Below are positions 2,432 to 12,197 of a DNA stretch of 64,000 nucleotides, in pieces. Positions within the stretch are counted from its first letter, which is position 1. The number at the start of each line of letters is the position of its first letter. The DNA lies in contig JACADZ010000099.1 in NCBI GenBank assembly GCA_013389105.1, forward strand, positions 1-64,000, read 5' to 3'. The notes beneath the pieces were generated by a model. That model worked only from the letters and a program-made list of their open reading frames with translations. It was not told the DNA's origin and did not search any database. The DNA is from Parvularculaceae bacterium. Lineage in GTDB: Bacteria; Pseudomonadota; Alphaproteobacteria; Caulobacterales; Parvularculaceae. Position numbers and translations under genes: made by a program.

Positions 2432-3208
2432 TCATGGCTTCTTCGGCTTGACCAGGGTCGCGGGCCGACGCGCCCGGGCCTCCGCGAACAGCGAGAACGT
2501 CTTGTTGACGTAGTTGCTGACATCAACGATGGAATTCACATAGGCGTCAAGCTCTTCCGAAGGCTCCTGCTCGACAAGCCGCACGCGGCCCGCCGGATTT
2601 TCAGTCTCGAAGTGGACGTAAAACCAGGGCTCGCCGCGCTTGAAGCTCAGGGGCTTCGTCATGTCGTGCCACTCAAAGCCCCAGCTCAAGGGGCGCGGCC
2701 ACACATGCACGGGGAAACGGCCGCAGACCTGCACGCCGGGCCGCGGCGTCGGCAGGTAGTGGAGATAGGGCGGCGACTGCACGACATAGCAGGGATCGTC
2801 GGCGATGAAGACGTAAGGGGCGATCATCTGCACGATCGGGCGCTCGGGATGGCGCCACTCCGCCTGCGGATGAAGCACCATGAGATCGCGCAACGCGCCC
2901 TGGCGGACGCCCGACTGAGGTCCGTCGGCGTCGATGAGCGAAAGCTGGCCGTTCGCTTGACGATCGAATTTCAAGGTCAGGTCCATCGGGAACGGAATAA
3001 CGAAGTGCCGCCGGTCGAAATCGACCGCGGCCGGACAGAACTGAACCGATTTGGACGACGCCGGCTTGCCCTGATGCGGCTCATAGGGCTTCGGCGGCGC
3101 CCACATCACCGCTCCCTTCTGCGCGCGGACCGTCCAGCCGACGGTGACGATCCGCCCCCGCCCGCCGCGCTCGTCGAGCCCTTCCGCGAAATAGTCGTCC
3201 TGGTTCAT
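2432..3208 (-). CDS. Conserved hypothetical protein
   Basis: ORF in frame with good coding character; likely start MNQDDYFAEG at 3208; family not recognised. Confidence 0.6.
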   Translation of the reverse strand: MNQDDYFAEGLDERGGRGRIVTVGWTVRAQKGAVMWAPPKPYEPHQGKPASSKSVQFCPAAVDFDRRHFVIPFPMDLTLKFDRQANGQLSLIDADGPQSGVRQGALRDLMVLHPQAEWRHPERPIVQMIAPYVFIADDPCYVVQSPPYLHYLPTPRPGVQVCGRFPVHVWPRPLSWGFEWHDMTKPLSFKRGEPWFYVHFETENPAGRVRLVEQEPSEELDAYVNSIVDVSNYVNKTFSLFAEARARRPATLVKPKKP

Positions 3209-3228
3209 GGAGTTGCTTTCGGCGGCGT

Positions 3229-4116
3229 CTAGTTCTTGCGATTGAACACGAAGTCGGCCGCGCCTTTCAGCGGCTCTGCTCTGGGGCCGAAGCGGTCGAG
3301 ATGCGCCTTGCATTCCTCGATGAGGCGGCGCGCCTGATCGCGCGCGCCCTCAGCGCCGAGGAGCTTCACGAAGGTCGCCTTGTCCATATCCGCGTCCTGC
3401 CCGACCGGCTTGCCAAGCTCTTCGGCGGCCCCGAAAGCGTCGAGCAGATCATCGACGATCTGGAAGGCGAGGCCGAGATCCTCCGCATACGACGTCAGCG
3501 CCGCAATGTCGGCCTCGCTCCCTTCGCCGATGACGCCCCCGGCCATAGCCGAGAACCGGATGAGGGCGCCCGTTTTTAGGCGCTGAAGCTCTTCGATGCC
3601 GGCGAGATCGAACGACTTCTGTTCGGCGTAGATGTCGATCATCTGCCCGCCGACCATGCCGTCCTTGCCGGCGCCGCGCGCGAGTTCGAGAGCGAGACGG
3701 CAGCGCACCTCGGCGTTCGGGTGGGTGTCCCGGTGCGCAAGGATTTCAAACGCTTCAGTCAAGAGCGCGTCGCCGGCGAGAATGGCGGTGGCGTCGTCAA
3801 ACGCCTTGTGCACGGAGGGGCGGCCGCGGCGCAGGTCGCTGTCATCCATCGCGGGAAGATCATCGTGAATGAGGCTGTAGCAATGGATCATTTCGATGGC
3901 GCAGCCGGCCCGCACCGAACGCGTCCTTGGACAGTCGAACATGTCGGCCGCCGCAATCAGCAGAAACGGGCGCAGGCGCTTGCCCCCGTCGAGCGCGCCA
4001 TGGCGCATGGCGTCGACGACGCGGCCGAGCGGCCCGCTGCGGCGGGGCAGGAATTGATCGAGGGCGGTCTCGATGAGGCCGGCCGTTTCCCGGATCGTCG
4101 TGTCGAAATCCCGCAT
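3229..4116 (-). CDS. ispA: Polyprenyl synthetase (farnesyl diphosphate synthase)
   Basis: GGKRLRPFLLIAAA, DDLPAMDDSDLRRGRPSVHK and DDLLD Asp-rich motifs. Confidence 0.9.
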   Translation of the reverse strand: MRDFDTTIRETAGLIETALDQFLPRRSGPLGRVVDAMRHGALDGGKRLRPFLLIAAADMFDCPRTRSVRAGCAIEMIHCYSLIHDDLPAMDDSDLRRGRPSVHKAFDDATAILAGDALLTEAFEILAHRDTHPNAEVRCRLALELARGAGKDGMVGGQMIDIYAEQKSFDLAGIEELQRLKTGALIRFSAMAGGVIGEGSEADIAALTSYAEDLGLAFQIVDDLLDAFGAAEELGKPVGQDADMDKATFVKLLGAEGARDQARRLIEECKAHLDRFGPRAEPLKGAADFVFNRKN

Positions 4117-4164
4117 CTGTGACCGCCCGTTTGCGCGCCTCATAGCCGAGCGCGCCATGCTCTG

Positions 4165-4809
4165 CTAGCGCGTCGGGTCGATGAAGCCCCTTCCCTCGCA
4201 GTCGTCGCAGGCGCGCGCAAGAAATCCTCTCCTGCCGCGTCCTTCGCAGCCCGGGCAAAGGATTTGGGGCTCGTTGCGCCAGAAATAGGCCTTGCAGAAG
4301 GCCCCGGTCCTGCCCGCGATCGCGGCCGGCTCAAATCCGAGCATATCGGCAGCGTAGTCGGCCGGCGCGGCGGACGCCTGGTTCAAAGCCTGGAGGGCGA
4401 AAGACATGTCGCGCTTCCAGGCGCCCAGGATCAGCGCGAACTTGTTGTCGGAGAATTTCTTCCGCACCGCGATCTTGGCGAGCACGTACAGATCGCCCTC
4501 TTCGATGAAGGCGTCGGCAAGATGAAGTTCGCCATTCAGCTTTCGGAGCACCCGGTCGGTCGGCCGGAAGCCGACGAACCGCGCCAGGAAACCCACCTCC
4601 GTAACGCCGGCTTTCGGGCCGCCAACATGGACGAGCGCGACGACGAAGCGGAACGCCCGGTCGGCCACGTCGTAGACTGTGTGATCGTCGTCTTCTCCGA
4701 TGACGAGGATCGACTTGAAGGCGCGCTTCAGGCCCTCCTCAATTCGCGCGCGCGGCCAGGAGGCGACCGGTCTTTTCGCCTCGGACTTCTTGTCGGCGTA
4801 CCCTTGCAT
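4165..4809 (-). CDS. Hypothetical protein with C-terminal DnaJ-type zinc motif (paralog of the 4815-5486 product)
   Basis: C-terminus CPGCEGRGRRGFLARACDDCEGRG; body aligns with the adjacent ORF (SWPRARIEEGLKRAF, LHLADAFI, AWKRDMS). Confidence 0.75.
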   Translation of the reverse strand: MQGYADKKSEAKRPVASWPRARIEEGLKRAFKSILVIGEDDDHTVYDVADRAFRFVVALVHVGGPKAGVTEVGFLARFVGFRPTDRVLRKLNGELHLADAFIEEGDLYVLAKIAVRKKFSDNKFALILGAWKRDMSFALQALNQASAAPADYAADMLGFEPAAIAGRTGAFCKAYFWRNEPQILCPGCEGRGRRGFLARACDDCEGRGFIDPTR

Positions 4810-4814
4810 TGCAG

Positions 4815-5486
4815 CTAGCGGCGCCTCTCGATAAGGCCCGATCCGTCGCATTTCCCGCAGAGCCGGGCGATGAACCCGAGCTTACCTCGCCCGCCGCATT
4901 CCGTGCAAACAACCGGCTTGCGCGCCGGCCCGATGAAGGAAGCGAACAGCTGCGCCGCAGCCCCGTCGGCGCGCGCGGTATTGGTTGCAAGCGCCAAAAT
5001 CCGCTCGTCGCGGTCGAAACCGAAGGCGCTCGCGTAACTGGCGGCCCCCGTCAGCATGCCGATGACGATGGAGAGGTCGCGCTTCCAGGCGTCGAAGAAA
5101 GCGTTGAGCGCCGCTTCGCTGAACTCGCCGCTCGGCTCGACGCCCGCAAACATGTCGAGCGCCGCATCGCGAATCTGGACCGCCGCAAGATGCAAGTTGC
5201 GGTTCATGGCGGCAGCCTTGGCCCCATCCGCGCCGAACCCTTCAAAGCGCGTGTAGAAGATGATCTGGTCGATGTCGCCCGCGCGACCGACCGGATGGTG
5301 GAGCACGATGACGAAGGCGACATCATTCTCAAGAACGCCGTAGAGCACGAACTCGTCCCGAGCATGGGGTCCCTGGACGTCGCCAAACCGCTTCTTGATC
5401 GCCGCGTCGATCCGGACCCGCGGCCAGGACCCGCCGGAGAGCGCGCGCCCGGATGCGCCCGGATGCGAAAAAAGCCTTGAAAACAT
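4815..5486 (-). CDS. Hypothetical protein with C-terminal DnaJ-type zinc motif (paralog of the 4165-4809 product)
   Basis: C-terminus CTECGGRGKLGFIARLCGKCDGSG; SWPRVRIDAAIKKRF and AWKRDLS shared with the neighbour; 5-bp gap suggests an operon. Confidence 0.75.
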   Translation of the reverse strand: MFSRLFSHPGASGRALSGGSWPRVRIDAAIKKRFGDVQGPHARDEFVLYGVLENDVAFVIVLHHPVGRAGDIDQIIFYTRFEGFGADGAKAAAMNRNLHLAAVQIRDAALDMFAGVEPSGEFSEAALNAFFDAWKRDLSIVIGMLTGAASYASAFGFDRDERILALATNTARADGAAAQLFASFIGPARKPVVCTECGGRGKLGFIARLCGKCDGSGLIERRR

Positions 5487-5746: not shown

Positions 5747-6739
5747 ATGGGCGAAGCGACCAAGCCGCTGCGCGTCATTCTCGCTCAGCCGCGCGGGTTT
5801 TGCGCGGGCGTGGAGCGCGCCATCGACATCGTCGAACGGGCGCTGGAGAAGTATGGGGCTCCGGTCTATGTGCGACACGAGATCGTCCACAACAAGCGCG
5901 TCGTCGATACCCTCAAAGCGCGGGGCGCGATCTTCGTCGAAGAGGTTGACGAGATTCCGACCGGCGCCGTCACGATCTTTTCAGCGCATGGCGTCGCCAA
6001 GAAAGTCGAAGACGGGGCCGGGTTCCGCGACCTTGACGTCATCGACGCGACCTGCCCGCTTGTGACCAAAGTGCACAAGGAAGGCCGTCGCTACGCCGAG
6101 AAGGGCTACGACATCGTCCTCATCGGTCATCTCGGCCATCCGGAGGTCGAGGGAACGCTCGGCCAGATTCCAGGAACCGTGCATGTCATCAGCGAGCCGC
6201 ATGACGTGCATTCGCTCGAGGTGGCGGATCCGGACAGGGTGGCTTTCGTCACGCAGACCACGCTTTCGGTGAACGACACCAAGGACGTGATCGCCGCGCT
6301 GCGCGCCAAATTTCCGAAGATCGTCGGTCCTGATACGCGCGACATCTGCTACGCGACGCAGAATCGGCAGACCGCCGTCATCGAGCTCTCGAAAAAGATC
6401 GACATGCTCCTCGTCGTCGGCGCCAACAACTCGTCGAACTCCAACCGCCTGCGCGAGATCGGTCAGAATTTCGGCATCCCAAGCTATCTGATTGAGGACG
6501 CCACCATGTTCGACCCCGCCTGGCTTAACGGGGCCGAGACGATCGGCATCACGGCCGGCGCATCGGCGCCGGAAACCTTGGTGCAGGAGACGATCCGGCG
6601 CCTCAAGATGTATCGGACGGTCAGCGTCGAGACTCTCGACGGCGTGCAGGAGAATGTGCACTTCAAGCTGCCCGCCGAGCTGGCCGACGTGCCCCGGCCG
6701 AAAGACGCGATGGACGTCTGGGCCGTTGAGCCGGCCTAG
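5747..6739 (+). CDS. ispH: 4-hydroxy-3-methylbut-2-enyl diphosphate reductase
   Basis: [56 protein letters not shown]. Confidence 0.97.
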
Positions 6740-6769: not shown

Positions 6770-7924
6770 ATGGGTATTTCATTTCACCAGGCGGCCCGCG
6801 TCGGCGCTTACGTCATGAAGCAGACCTTGGCGGGCAACAAACGCTATCCGCTGGTCCTCTTCCTCGAACCGCTGTTCCGCTGCAACCTTGCCTGTCCCGG
6901 CTGCGGCAAGATCGATTACCCGGCCCCCATCCTCAACAAGCGCCTGTCGGTGAAGGAGTGCCTCGACGCGGTCGACGAGTGCGGCGCGCCGGTCGTCGCC
7001 ATTCCGGGCGGCGAGCCGTTGATCCACAAGGATATCGGCGAGATCGTCGCAGGTATTGTCGCGCGCAAGAAGTTCGTCTCGCTGTGCACGAACGCGCTGC
7101 TGCTGGAAAAGAAACTTCACCTGTTCAAGCCCTCGCCGTTCCTGTTTTTCTCGGTGCACCTAGACGGGCTTGAAGAGCATCACGACCGAGCGGTCGATCA
7201 GAAGGGGACGTTCCAGATCGCGGTCAAAGCGATCAAGGCCGCACAGGCCAAGGGCTTCCAAGTCAACGCCAACGCCACCATCTTCAACAACATGCCGGCG
7301 AAGGACGTGGCCGACTTTTTCGATTTCGCCACCGACCTCGGCGTCAACATCACCTTCTCGCCGGGATACGCCTATGAGCGCGCCGCCGACCAGGAGCACT
7401 TCCTGTCGCGCGAGAAGACGAAGAACCTGTTCCGCGAAGTCTTCCGCATGGGAAAGGAACGCGGCCGCAAGTGGAATTTCAGCCAGTCGCCGCTGTTCCT
7501 CGATTTCCTCGCCGGCAACCAGGACTATCTGTGCACGCCCTGGGGCTCGCCGACGCGCAACGTCTTCGGCTGGCAGAAGCCCTGCTATCTTCTTGGCGAG
7601 GGCTACGTCTCCTCCTTCAAGGAATTGATGGAGACGACCGATTGGGATTCCTACGGCACCGGCCGATATGAAAAATGCTCGAACTGCATGGCGCATTGCG
7701 GCTACGAACCGACCGCCGCAATGGATGCAGTGAAAAATCCGCTCAAGATGATGAAGCTCGGCAGCCTCGCCGCCATCCGCACCGAAGGCCCGATGGTCCC
7801 CGAGATCGATCTGTCGAAGGCCCGCAAGGCGGTCGACGTGCACGAGAAGCTCGTCGCCGAACAGATGTCAAAGATCGAGGCCGAGAAGAAGGCCGCCAAG
7901 GAGCCGGTCGAGGCTGCGGCCTAG
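6770..7924 (+). CDS. hpnH: Adenosyl-hopene transferase (radical SAM)
   Basis: Radical-SAM motif CNLACPGC; overall HpnH sequence (MGISFHQAARVGAYVMKQTLAGNKRYPLVLFLEPLFRCNLACPGCGKIDYP). Confidence 0.95.
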   Translation: MGISFHQAARVGAYVMKQTLAGNKRYPLVLFLEPLFRCNLACPGCGKIDYPAPILNKRLSVKECLDAVDECGAPVVAIPGGEPLIHKDIGEIVAGIVARKKFVSLCTNALLLEKKLHLFKPSPFLFFSVHLDGLEEHHDRAVDQKGTFQIAVKAIKAAQAKGFQVNANATIFNNMPAKDVADFFDFATDLGVNITFSPGYAYERAADQEHFLSREKTKNLFREVFRMGKERGRKWNFSQSPLFLDFLAGNQDYLCTPWGSPTRNVFGWQKPCYLLGEGYVSSFKELMETTDWDSYGTGRYEKCSNCMAHCGYEPTAAMDAVKNPLKMMKLGSLAAIRTEGPMVPEIDLSKARKAVDVHEKLVAEQMSKIEAEKKAAKEPVEAAA

Positions 7925-8674
7925 CGTCTTCAGCGCGGCGCCGCTGTCTCGCCCCAATAGCAAAAGCGCCGGGAAATCGCCTGGCGCTTTCGCGCATTTA
8001 AGGAGCGTCGCTATCACCCGTGTCGAGCCGTCCATGGCGACGGCGCCAAGCGCGGCTTTCGGCAGCGCCCGCCCCGCGGGGTCGGCGATCGCGCGGATCG
8101 CCGCAAACGGAACGTCGGCCGCCTTAGCGGCGCGCGCCGCGCCGTGAGACTCCATATCGACCGCGACGGCGCCGTAGGACGCGAAAAGGCGCGCTTTGTC
8201 CTCGGCCGATGCGATAATTGAGTCAGCGCCGAGCAGTACGGCGTCGAAATGAACGCCCGTCCCCTCCTTCCGCTCATCCCGGCGAAAGCCGGGATCCAGA
8301 CTTTGATGCAGCGCATGAAGGGGTTCTGGGTCCCGGCTTTCGCCTTGATGAGCGGGCGGAGAGAGCGCCGTTTTCAACATTGAAATCAGCGCCGCGTCGC
8401 AATCGAACCGCTCGCCGCGTTCCGACGCCACCCGCCCGCCGATCAGCAGGTCTCCCGGCCGCAGCGCCGGCGACAAGGCGCCGGAGACGCCGACCGAGAG
8501 CATGGCGGCGATCTCGTCCTCCTCGATCGCCGTGCGCGCCATGTCCTCCGCCCGCTGAGCGGCGGCGCCGGGTACCCACACGCCGGCGCGCTCGCCTGCA
8601 TTTACGGCGGCGAGCGCGCGGCCGATGACGGCGGCCTCTGACTTCAGGCCGCAGATGATGGCGAGGGACCGCAC
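7868..8674 (-). CDS. hpnG: Hopanoid-associated phosphorylase HpnG (carries an in-frame palindromic-repeat insertion)
   Basis: Phosphorylase-type motifs SVGVSGALSP and VAVDMESHGAARAA; next to hpnE; overlaps the hpnH 3' end by 57 nt. Confidence 0.85.
   Translation of the reverse strand: MRSLAIICGLKSEAAVIGRALAAVNAGERAGVWVPGAAAQRAEDMARTAIEEDEIAAMLSVGVSGALSPALRPGDLLIGGRVASERGERFDCDAALISMLKTALSPPAHQGESRDPEPLHALHQSLDPGFRRDERKEGTGVHFDAVLLGADSIIASAEDKARLFASYGAVAVDMESHGAARAAKAADVPFAAIRAIADPAGRALPKAALGAVAMDGSTRVIATLLKCAKAPGDFPALLLLGRDSGAALKTLGRSLDRLLGGLLLGLDL
8270..8355. repeat. Imperfect palindromic (REP/RPE-like) element inside hpnG
   Basis: Arm 1 CCGCTCATCCCGGCGAAAGCCGGGATCCAGA (8270-8300), 24-nt loop, arm 2 TCTGGGTCCCGGCTTTCGCCTTGATGAGCGG (8325-8355); arms are reverse complements apart from about 3 mismatches. 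Confidence 0.8.
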
Positions 8675-9951
8675 TACGCAGCCGTTCGCTCAATGATTTC
8701 CGCCGCCCGGTCCCCCGAGCGGATCGAACCTTCGATGGTCGCCGGCACGCCCGTGTCGGTATGATCGCCAGCGAGCACCAGATTGCGCCAGCGCGTTTCC
8801 GGTTTGAGCCTTTTGGCGACCGCCGCGGGCGACTGATTGGGCGTCGCGCGGCGTTCGCGGATGACGCGCACGGCCTCATAGGGCTCGTTGCGGATGTCGA
8901 GGGCGACCTGCGTCTCGCGCCAGAGGTCGGCGACCGCTTTCTCGTTCGGCACGTCGTCCATGCCGATGGCGTGGCTCGCCGATACGGTCAGCGAGACGAC
9001 GTCGTCGCGCACGAACGCCCATTGCGCGTCCGCCGACACCAGGCCGAGGAACGGCGATTCCCCAAGTGCGCCGTTTGAAAGCGGCGCGCGGAGCCGATAG
9101 TGAACGTTGAGGATCGAAGCGTCGTCGTCCGGCGGATCGAGTTCGGGGATCAGCTGCTTCAGGCGCGACGGCGGCACGGCGAGGATCACATGGTCGCGGG
9201 GGCCGATGTCGATCGTCCCTTCAGGAAAATCGAGCATCGACACCCGGTCGCCGGCAAACGTCACCAGGCGAAGCCGCCGGTTCAGCAGCACTTCGGCGCC
9301 TTTTGACCGGAGATGGGCAAGCGCCGGATCGATGAAGGCGGGACCCAGTCCCTTCTTCGCCACCAGCGGCCGCGACGGCCCTCCCCCAAGCGCGAAGGTC
9401 TCGCGGATGACCGACCACAACAGCCGAGCCTGGCCGAGCCGCGGGGTCGTGTTCAGAACAGCGAGCGTCAGCGGCTCCCAGAACGTCCGGTAGAGAGGAC
9501 CGTCCGTGTCCACCACATCGGCGACGGTCTGGTCCTCGCGCGCGGCGGCGATTCCGGCGGCCTTCAGATAGTCGATCAACCTCGTTCCCGGAACGCGCGC
9601 CTTCGGATCGAACACCCAAGCGGGAAAGAGTCCGTCGGAGATGCGCACGGTCCAGCGCGCCCCGCTCTTGATGTCGACAAAGGGATAGCTCGCGGTCGCC
9701 GGGCCGGTCAGCGCGTCTTTCGAGCCGATGCGCCCAAGATAGGAGAGCGCGTGGCGATTGCCCGACATGATCAGGTGATTGCCGTTGTCGATGACCCGGT
9801 CGAGCGTCTTGTCGTAGAACGACCGGCAGCGCCCGCCTGCATGCCCCGCGGCGTCATAGACAATGACGCGCCGTCCCGCATCCGCAAGCCGGACGGCGGC
9901 AGAAAGGCCGGAGAGCCCGGCGCCAATGATGTGGATCCTGCTTTCGGGCAT
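8674..9951 (-). CDS. hpnE: Hydroxysqualene dehydroxylase HpnE
   Basis: IIGAGLSGLSAAVRLADAGRRVIVYDA FAD motif; position next to hpnD. Confidence 0.92.
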   Translation of the reverse strand: MPESRIHIIGAGLSGLSAAVRLADAGRRVIVYDAAGHAGGRCRSFYDKTLDRVIDNGNHLIMSGNRHALSYLGRIGSKDALTGPATASYPFVDIKSGARWTVRISDGLFPAWVFDPKARVPGTRLIDYLKAAGIAAAREDQTVADVVDTDGPLYRTFWEPLTLAVLNTTPRLGQARLLWSVIRETFALGGGPSRPLVAKKGLGPAFIDPALAHLRSKGAEVLLNRRLRLVTFAGDRVSMLDFPEGTIDIGPRDHVILAVPPSRLKQLIPELDPPDDDASILNVHYRLRAPLSNGALGESPFLGLVSADAQWAFVRDDVVSLTVSASHAIGMDDVPNEKAVADLWRETQVALDIRNEPYEAVRVIRERRATPNQSPAAVAKRLKPETRWRNLVLAGDHTDTGVPATIEGSIRSGDRAAEIIERTAA

Positions 9952-9956
9952 CTCGC

Positions 9957-10868
9957 TCAGTCCGGCGGCGGCGCCAAATAGTAACGCGCCGCTACGGCCG
10001 TCTTCTCGAGTTTCGACAGGCTGACCGCAGAGCCAAGCCTCTCCCAGCCGCGGGTTTCAAGGCGCTTCAGATAGGCCTCGTAGACGCCCATCATGAGCAG
10101 GGCCGGGCGCACCACCCGCCAGTCGAGCGACTTCAGCGCCGCGCGTGCGCTTAAAAACTTCTCCCGTGCGAGGGCGCCGAGGTCGCGACCGACCAATGCG
10201 AGGCCGGCGCGCCGCTTCGCGAGGTTTTCAGAATTCCCTGAGCGCACGACTTCGAGGACGCCCGGCGCGTCGAGCGGCGCGGCGTATTTCTCCAGAAGCT
10301 CCCGCGGCAGGTAAACCCGGCCGATCCCGGCGTCCTCGCCGACGTCGCGCAAGATGTTGGTGAGCTGCAGCGCGTCCCCGAGCGCGAGCGCGAACTCGCG
10401 GCTCGCCGCGTTCTTGGGCGCGCCGAAGGTCGGCATCGACAGCATGCCGACGGCGCCGGCCACGCGCCGCGTATAGGCGAGAAGCGTTTCCATCGGCGGC
10501 GCCACGATCGGACCCTCGGCGTCCATCTCCATGCCCTCGATCATGAGCAAGAACTCGGCGCGATCTAGATCAAATTGCTTGACGGGCTCGACCAGCGCAA
10601 TCCCGACCGGCGTCTGCGGATTGCCGGCAAAAACGCGGTCGATCTCGGCGCGCCAGGCAGCCAGCGAGAGGCGCTTGTCGCCAACGGACTGGTCGCCGTC
10701 GGCGATATCGTCGACCTCGCGGCAAAAGGCATAGATCGCGTGCATGCCCTCGCGGCGCGGGCGCGCAAGGATGCGCATGCCGGCCCCGAAGGAGGTGCCG
10801 GAGCGCTTGACCGCTTCGCGCGCGTGCCGGCGCGCCGCGTCAGTCGTAATCGCTGCCGTTGCCGACAA
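9957..10868 (-). CDS. hpnD: Presqualene diphosphate synthase HpnD
   Basis: SGTSFGAGMRILARPRREGMHAIYAFCREVDDIAD and QLTNILRDVGEDA; TTG start at 10868 inferred because the upstream ORF extension overlaps another gene. Confidence 0.9.
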   Translation of the reverse strand: MSATAAITTDAARRHAREAVKRSGTSFGAGMRILARPRREGMHAIYAFCREVDDIADGDQSVGDKRLSLAAWRAEIDRVFAGNPQTPVGIALVEPVKQFDLDRAEFLLMIEGMEMDAEGPIVAPPMETLLAYTRRVAGAVGMLSMPTFGAPKNAASREFALALGDALQLTNILRDVGEDAGIGRVYLPRELLEKYAAPLDAPGVLEVVRSGNSENLAKRRAGLALVGRDLGALAREKFLSARAALKSLDWRVVRPALLMMGVYEAYLKRLETRGWERLGSAVSLSKLEKTAVAARYYLAPPPD

Positions 10869-11304
10869 ATTCGCCGTCCTCCCACCGCGACCTAAGCCCG
10901 CCGTCATCGTACATGTCGAGCCGGAGCGTGAGGCCGCGCGCAGAAATCGCCTCAAGCGTCGCCGGCGACAGCTCAACCTCGTTATTAAATCCCGACATGA
11001 AGAGCCCGCAGAAGACCTCGCCATGAAAACTGCCGGCGAGATCGCGCCAGACGGCGAGATCGCCGCTGAGGCCGCCGAACAGCTCCTTGATCTGACTATC
11101 GAGGTCGCCCGGCTTGCGATCTTCGACGCCATGTCTCCAGACGCCGATTTCGGCCACTTTCGTCTTGCCGCGGGGCCGCCGGATGATCTCGCCCTTGCGC
11201 ACGCCGTCCGCCCTTTTCTGACCCAGCTGGCGGGCGATTTCGTGGGGATCGACCTCGTCGCCGATCAAGCGAACGCTGGCGCACGACATTCTGAGGCGGA
11301 CCAT
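10840..11304 (-). CDS. DUF4279-like protein
   Basis: VRLRMSCASVRLIGDEVDPHEIARQLGQKRADGVRKGE...SGDLAVWRDLAGSFHGEVFCGLFMSGFNNEVELSPATLEAISARGLTLRLDMYDDG resembles the DUF4279 pattern. Confidence 0.65.
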   Translation of the reverse strand: MVRLRMSCASVRLIGDEVDPHEIARQLGQKRADGVRKGEIIRRPRGKTKVAEIGVWRHGVEDRKPGDLDSQIKELFGGLSGDLAVWRDLAGSFHGEVFCGLFMSGFNNEVELSPATLEAISARGLTLRLDMYDDGGLRSRWEDGEFVGNGSDYD

Positions 11305-11306
11305 GA

Positions 11307-12197
11307 TCAGGCGCCGCGAGCCGAGAAGAAGCCGGTTACCGCGCCGCCGATTCCGCATCGCGCGAAGTCGAGCTTCGACAGCGCAACGCGCGAGGCGAGC
11401 GGATCACCCTTGCGCAACAGCGTAATGAGTCGCGCGGCGAGGTTGACGATGACGGCGGACTCCATCGCCAGATGACGGCTCTTGAGGGCCCCCGGCAGGC
11501 GGCGAGCATCCGTCATCAGCGCGTCGCACCCGTCGAGCATGCGATCGACGACCCGGCGAAGGCCGGGCGTGAGCGCATTCCGGTCGAGATCCTCAACCGA
11601 GGCCCCTTCCGCCGCCATCCACTCGCCGATCAGATAAACGCGGTCGAGGTTTCGGCGATCGTTTCCGCAGTCCTGCAGATGATTGATGATCTGAAGCACC
11701 GTGCACAGAGCATCGGAGTATCGGTAGCCGGCCCGATCCTCGCCATGGAGATCCAGCAGATATCTGCCGACAGGATTGGCGGATAGCGCGCAATAGCCGA
11801 GAAGCTCCTCCCAGGTCCGGTATCGCAGCTTGACCGAGTCCTGAACGAAGGCGGCGACGAGATCCGAGCCGTGGACGGTCGGGACGCCCGTCTGGCGCAT
11901 GCTCTCACGGAGCGCATGCGCCTTGGCGTACGCCTCCCCGTACCCGGGCTCGCCCTTCAGCGCCGCGTCGAACGCCCTCAAGCGGGCGATTTTCTCGTTG
12001 GCCGAAAGGTCGCCGTTATCGGCGATGTCGTCGATAGCCCTGGCGAAAGCGTAATAGGTCGCCACATGCGGCCGCAGGCGCTTCGGCAGCAGGAACGAGC
12101 CGACGGGAAAGTTCTCGTCCCTGGCGCCTTTGCCCGAAGGGGTTTCGGCGCCGGCGAGCGGGGCGGCGGCGGCTTTGGAGTCGGCGAGGACAGTCAT
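11307..12197 (-). CDS. hpnC: Squalene synthase HpnC
   Basis: DENFPVGSFLLPKRLRPHVATYYAFARAIDDIADNG; QIINHLQDCGNDRRNLDRVYL. Confidence 0.93.
   Translation of the reverse strand: MTVLADSKAAAAPLAGAETPSGKGARDENFPVGSFLLPKRLRPHVATYYAFARAIDDIADNGDLSANEKIARLRAFDAALKGEPGYGEAYAKAHALRESMRQTGVPTVHGSDLVAAFVQDSVKLRYRTWEELLGYCALSANPVGRYLLDLHGEDRAGYRYSDALCTVLQIINHLQDCGNDRRNLDRVYLIGEWMAAEGASVEDLDRNALTPGLRRVVDRMLDGCDALMTDARRLPGALKSRHLAMESAVIVNLAARLITLLRKGDPLASRVALSKLDFARCGIGGAVTGFFSARGA

Follow-up and report, generated by a model that had tools for sequence, protein, structure and literature searches.

Which role could two small adjacent genes play that lie between ispA and ispH in a hopanoid neighbourhood, and whose products end in a zinc motif of the DnaJ type? 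This question is raised by the window, a 64,000-nucleotide stretch of DNA from a Parvularculaceae bacterium, in which an earlier note had described such a pair as tandem paralogs of a family that its author did not recognise. Can sequence, predicted structure and gene neighbourhood indicate what these proteins, here called ZnA and ZnB, might do?

Two paralogous genes upstream of ispA

Both genes lie on the minus strand. ZnA (4815..5486; 223 residues) runs from an ATG at 5486 to a stop codon at 4815-4817, and ZnB (4165..4809; 214 residues) from an ATG at 4809 to a stop codon at 4165-4167. They are 5 bp apart, as had been described, and 6 bp separate ZnB from the start of ispA at 4158. ZnA is composed of a predicted YbjN/secretion-chaperone-like body (approximately residues 18-146), a variable linker and a putative zinc hairpin at the C-terminus with the cysteine pairs C194-C197 and C210-C213. 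ZnB is of identical architecture, with the pairs C185-C188 and C201-C204. A BLASTP comparison of the two gives 28% identity over 204 residues (E=1e-27) and includes the SWPR, LHLA and AWKRD blocks, by which the earlier note had recognised diverged paralogs, together with the zinc tail. A likeness confined to the tail is ruled out, since the alignment spans both body and tail.

The gene for farnesyl diphosphate synthase, ispA (3229..4158, minus; NF045485 over cut-off and synteny), is the probable co-transcribed downstream neighbour of ZnB. Divergent from ZnA follow the hopanoid-locus copy of ispH (5747..6739, plus; NF002188 over cut-off) and hpnH, which encodes the radical SAM enzyme adenosylhopene transferase (6770..7924, plus; TIGR03470 over cut-off). 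Beyond these, on the minus strand, lie hpnG for a hopanoid-associated phosphorylase (7868..8674), hpnE for hydroxysqualene dehydroxylase (8674..9951), hpnD for presqualene diphosphate synthase (9957..11132; its true start is probably inside the ORF) and hpnC for an enzyme of the squalene/phytoene-synthase family (11307..12197). While hpnE (TIGR03467) and hpnC (TIGR03464) exceed their cut-offs, hpnG (TIGR03468, 163 bits vs 187) and hpnD (TIGR03465, 269 bits vs 279) fall slightly short, and the hopanoid setting claimed for the pair holds. The squalene-hopene cyclase gene is found on another contig (G000:C173:20011-21834), outside the window's hpn locus. On the far side, a minus-strand ORF adjoining ispA (2432-3313) remains without a match in Pfam (E up to 1) and in NCBIfam (E up to 1e-10).

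A single putative zinc hairpin without a J domain

Both proteins carry one CxxCxGxG-x8-CxxCxGxG pair at the C-terminal end, in ZnA at 4836..4907 (minus; CTECGGRGKLGFIARLCGKCDGSG) and in ZnB at 4186..4257 (minus; CPGCEGRGRRGFLARACDDCEGRG). By motif, this is the single DnaJ-type site per C-terminus that had been reported, with the pairs as quoted, and such a tail would bind zinc. Among 40 homologs the spacer is x8 in 36 and x6 in three, and the four cysteines and the glycines are kept in 39, while none of the remaining 2,320 ORFs in the loci has the pair. Close ortholog pairs show dN/dS ratios of 0.06-0.18 in eight of nine cases and 0.35 in the ninth, which indicates that the family evolves under purifying selection. 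Taken together, the cysteine pair, its absence from the other ORFs and the low dN/dS exclude a chance origin. The Zn proteins are real, conserved and restricted to one bacterial family, with an unusual but understandable architecture. An ortholog with a degenerate site (LCDESGDRDERGLIARLRGDGEGRGF) exists in Parvularcula sp. BBD 1991-13 (genome G020; L084 10001-10648 and L191 5977-6624), where one of four cysteines is left and the body is intact.

Which known proteins share such a tail? Searches of Pfam and NCBIfam with ZnA and ZnB returned only weak matches, to the zinc motif and, in ZnB, below threshold to YbjN. The nearest named match of the tail is RtpA, the anti-TRAP protein of Bacillus (E 0.004), with DnaJ also among the matches; the RtpA model (cut-off 65 bits) is not reached by ZnB (17.2 bits) or ZnA (12.8 bits). 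In anti-TRAP, too, two neighbouring CxxCxGxG motifs, a short spacer apart, make up one zinc site, a likeness which for the Zn proteins is one of motif only. The two motifs of anti-TRAP bind zinc; however, it is a 53-residue trimer and has no YbjN-like body. DnaJ (Hsp40 type I) combines four CxxCxGxG motifs and two zincs with a J domain, whereas the Zn proteins have two motifs and no Pfam or NCBIfam match to a J domain. This agrees with the earlier note and rules out a J-domain protein. A J domain is likewise missing from ORANGE, BSD2 and ZnJ2 of plants and algae, which carry CxxCxGxG motifs of the DnaJ type. The target of ORANGE is phytoene synthase, and models of the phytoene synthase family match HpnC and HpnD as well. 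Yet ORANGE and BSD2 (DnaJE1) have four motifs instead of two (PMC12063368). The bodies of all three are unrelated to that of the Zn proteins, and the comparison is an analogy only.

A predicted body fold close to YbjN and secretion chaperones

The structure work was based on a family alignment of 35 relatives. AlphaFold predicts the same body for both proteins, helix-beta4-helix-beta2-helix, with pLDDT mostly above 90; the complete models reach a mean pLDDT of 79.5 and a pTM of 0.63 for ZnA, and 84.5 and 0.77 for ZnB. When either model is compared with the PDB by Foldseek, YbjN proteins and class I secretion chaperones rank top. They make up nearly all hits at a probability of 0.9-1.0, namely 2plg, 8q8o, ExsC (3kxy), SycE (1k6z), SycT, Spa15, DR1245 (4h5b) and E. 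coli YbjN (6vu7), at modest E-values of which the best are 0.003 and 0.008 and none is below 0.001. A YbjN/secretion-chaperone-like fold with the architecture described above is thus highly probable as predicted.

The relation to YbjN can also be followed in sequence. The YbjN family (Pfam PF10722) includes E. coli YbjN, Erwinia AmyR, Deinococcus DR1245 and tll0839. Its gathering threshold of 22 bits is not reached by ZnB (14.2 bits), and ZnA has no match; 14 of the 35 members match at E up to 10, all below cut-off, with a best E of 0.0014. In hhalign, the body was aligned over 127 columns with a pooled profile of YbjN proteins proper from the same bacterial family. The alignment scored 33.9, and 100 shuffles of the columns reached 19.3 at most (P 1e-4); the score also exceeds that of the reversed profile, while the single subfamilies Y1, Y80 and Y9 were not significant. 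An invariant asparagine (N95) ends helix 2 in the Zn family, and YbjN proteins tend to have a conserved asparagine there too.

The predicted fold, the body length and weak profile matches recall YbjN proteins, and a distant descent of the Zn body from them is probable, with support short of proof. There are differences as well. The Zn proteins carry a zinc hairpin where the C-terminus of YbjN is disordered, they remain below the Pfam cut-off, and by eye they have no signal peptide, while several local YbjN paralogs seem to have one. YbjN proteins are characterised by a homodimer via helix 2, and a Zn dimer would be the corresponding assumption. We therefore do not file the Zn proteins under PF10722 but speak of a YbjN-like fold, and the statement that sequence places them in no well-characterised family stands. 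The class I type III secretion chaperones (SycE, SycT, ExsC, Spa15) resemble the predicted body in fold but show no sequence similarity to it; in the window the Zn locus contains no secretion genes, and the zinc tail is an addition. In titles and abstracts of the YbjN literature on zinc or DnaJ we found no such combination, and at this level a YbjN/secretion-chaperone fold joined to a DnaJ-type zinc site appears to be unreported.

Parvularculaceae genomes have several YbjN paralogs each, some with apparent signal peptides; the copies in the window genome are at G000:C199:28017-28400, C33:4259-4651 and C80:12151-12498. A protein in genome G002 (L220 1360-1881) matches the body part of the Zn family profile (E 2.9e-7) and has neither a zinc tail nor a Pfam match.

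Distribution and conservation of the locus

How widespread are the Zn genes? They were found in 42 of the 62 sampled Parvularculaceae genomes, as a single copy in nearly all; the window genome has exactly two, ZnA and ZnB. The tandem pair is real in the window but not the rule, as it recurs in only one other genome (G041, locus L075), and G039 has its copies on two contigs. In a tree, both window copies and one of the L075 copies, but not the other, sit on long branches, a pattern that fits fast divergence after duplication. A test of the window pair as one clade, that is as a recent duplication, gave p-AU 0.388 with both branches long. True relatives outside the Parvularculaceae were absent from samples of the order and class and from a genome-collection scan, and relatives labelled just Alphaproteobacteria come from genomes that fall in the same family (f1). 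The order and class searches otherwise returned short zinc-motif stretches inside ORFs of approximately 380-390 residues, which we read as probable DnaJ itself. A mobile, plasmid or phage gene is disfavoured, as a plasmid search with ZnA gave no match and the PHROGs matches of the Zn proteins are all weak and mainly to the zinc motif.

The neighbourhood proved more constant than a single window could reveal. In all 34 loci of the collection, which were searched for the window's own neighbour genes only, the Zn gene is on the ispA strand, and it lies directly upstream of ispA in 33, which are all those whose contig has ispA, at a distance from its stop of mostly 6-220 bp. Wherever the contig reaches, ispH is divergent and followed by hpnH, and hpnE-D-C lie beyond on contigs that are long enough; hpnD was undetected in L070, and hpnG was found in part of the loci. 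One distant Zn branch, that of genus g8, is not part of the hpn locus; in the two genomes with long contigs it is about 11 kb from a second ispH. This second gene, at about 50% identity to the hopanoid-locus copy, is located elsewhere in the genome (in the window genome at G000:C37:45027-45956, 51% identical to 5747-6739), and the searched family genomes without HpnH have only this second kind.

The Zn gene and HpnH occur together in 41 of the 62 genomes, HpnH alone in three, the Zn gene alone in one and neither in 17 (Fisher p 2.6e-11, which ignores relatedness and is not independent evidence); this co-occurrence is confounded by shared ancestry. The Zn-only genome, G003, is 72% complete, and the HpnH-only genomes are G001, G006, whose contig ends inside ispH and whose Zn absence is uncertain, and G053. 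G001 is a close relative. Its locus (L182) has ispA at 9281-10156 and ispH at 10540-11517 with a short intergenic gap free of a Zn gene, along with hpnH, hpnG and at least part of hpnE, and no Zn gene is detectable anywhere in its genome. Since G001 keeps the locus and G053 has hpnH without a Zn gene, the gene is not required for the pathway.

Do these patterns call for a functional link at all? Gene order may be conserved simply because it was inherited, and the Zn proteins could be general stress or housekeeping YbjN-like proteins that merely inherited their place beside ispA. The conservation of the order as a block, the confinement to a single bacterial family, the separate location of the g8 branch and the natural absences in G001 and G053 would all suit such a scenario. 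However, the Zn gene and HpnH go missing together in genera g2, g4 and g9, as they do within g8, and we consider a protein without any link to the locus possible but, on balance, somewhat unlikely.

A protein-binding partner for a local enzyme?

The reading we favour is that the Zn proteins are non-catalytic, probably dimeric, protein-binding adaptors or holdases for an enzyme of the same locus, and for this statement as a whole, from fold to function, we estimate a probability of about 40%. They would act through protein binding and without catalysis, and would thereby stabilise or regulate an enzyme encoded at the isoprenoid/hopanoid locus; first candidate clients would be IspA, from the same operon, and the hpn enzymes. 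This reading joins the protein contacts typical of YbjN, the existence of zinc holdases without J domain and the operon-like placement before ispA. YbjN proteins have been described as working via protein-protein interactions with no enzymatic action (PMC5398634), and DdrB is a specific binding partner of DR1245 (PMC3575483). DnaJ-type zinc proteins without J domain are client-specific holdases in plastids, among them ORANGE, whose client is phytoene synthase (PMC12063368), and ZnJ2 (PMC5818400). That the Zn proteins dimerise and bind a client, and which client this would be, is what we infer here.

A bolder version, to which we attach low odds, sees a bacterial ATP-independent chaperone dedicated to hopanoid/isoprenoid synthesis, in which a secretion-chaperone-like fold is fused to a DnaJ-type zinc hairpin, as a convergent counterpart of plant ORANGE that would exert post-translational control of flux into membrane triterpenoids. 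For hopanoid synthesis, we know of no chaperone of its own and of no regulator that acts after translation. If the link holds, the Zn proteins would allow protein stabilisation specific to one pathway to be tested in a bacterium. A culturable relative such as Marinicaulis flavus, the natural absence in G001 and the G020 ortholog with its naturally degenerate site make this tractable. On present evidence they are not a new kind of system.

Might the bound partner instead be a regulator? A Zn protein could bind a transcription or RNA-binding regulator, comparable to the pairs anti-TRAP-TRAP and ExsC-ExsE, and tune the expression of the divergent ispH-hpnH and ispA units according to zinc or redox state. 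The tail is closest to anti-TRAP, a zinc-requiring protein antagonist, ExsC is among the nearest folds, and the gene sits at the divergent ispH/ispA intergenic region. Yet no regulator gene adjoins, and a promoter/terminator scan, a weak test, recognised no sigma-70-like site in the ispA-ispH region, so that we regard this role as unlikely.

Within the conserved block, the divergently placed neighbours IspH and HpnH are both 4Fe-4S enzymes, whose cluster sites the hairpin might protect, reduce or deliver to. Weak thiol-reductase activity has been reported for DnaJ, whose four CXXC motifs bind zinc (PMC4428491), but such a thiol or metal helper is improbable here, as the hairpin corresponds to a zinc site of the structural kind and not to a cluster scaffold, the hpn copies of ispH lie at a great distance from the g8 relatives, the L084/L191 ortholog has lost most of its cysteines, and ZnJ2 retains its holdase activity without its cysteines (PMC5818400).
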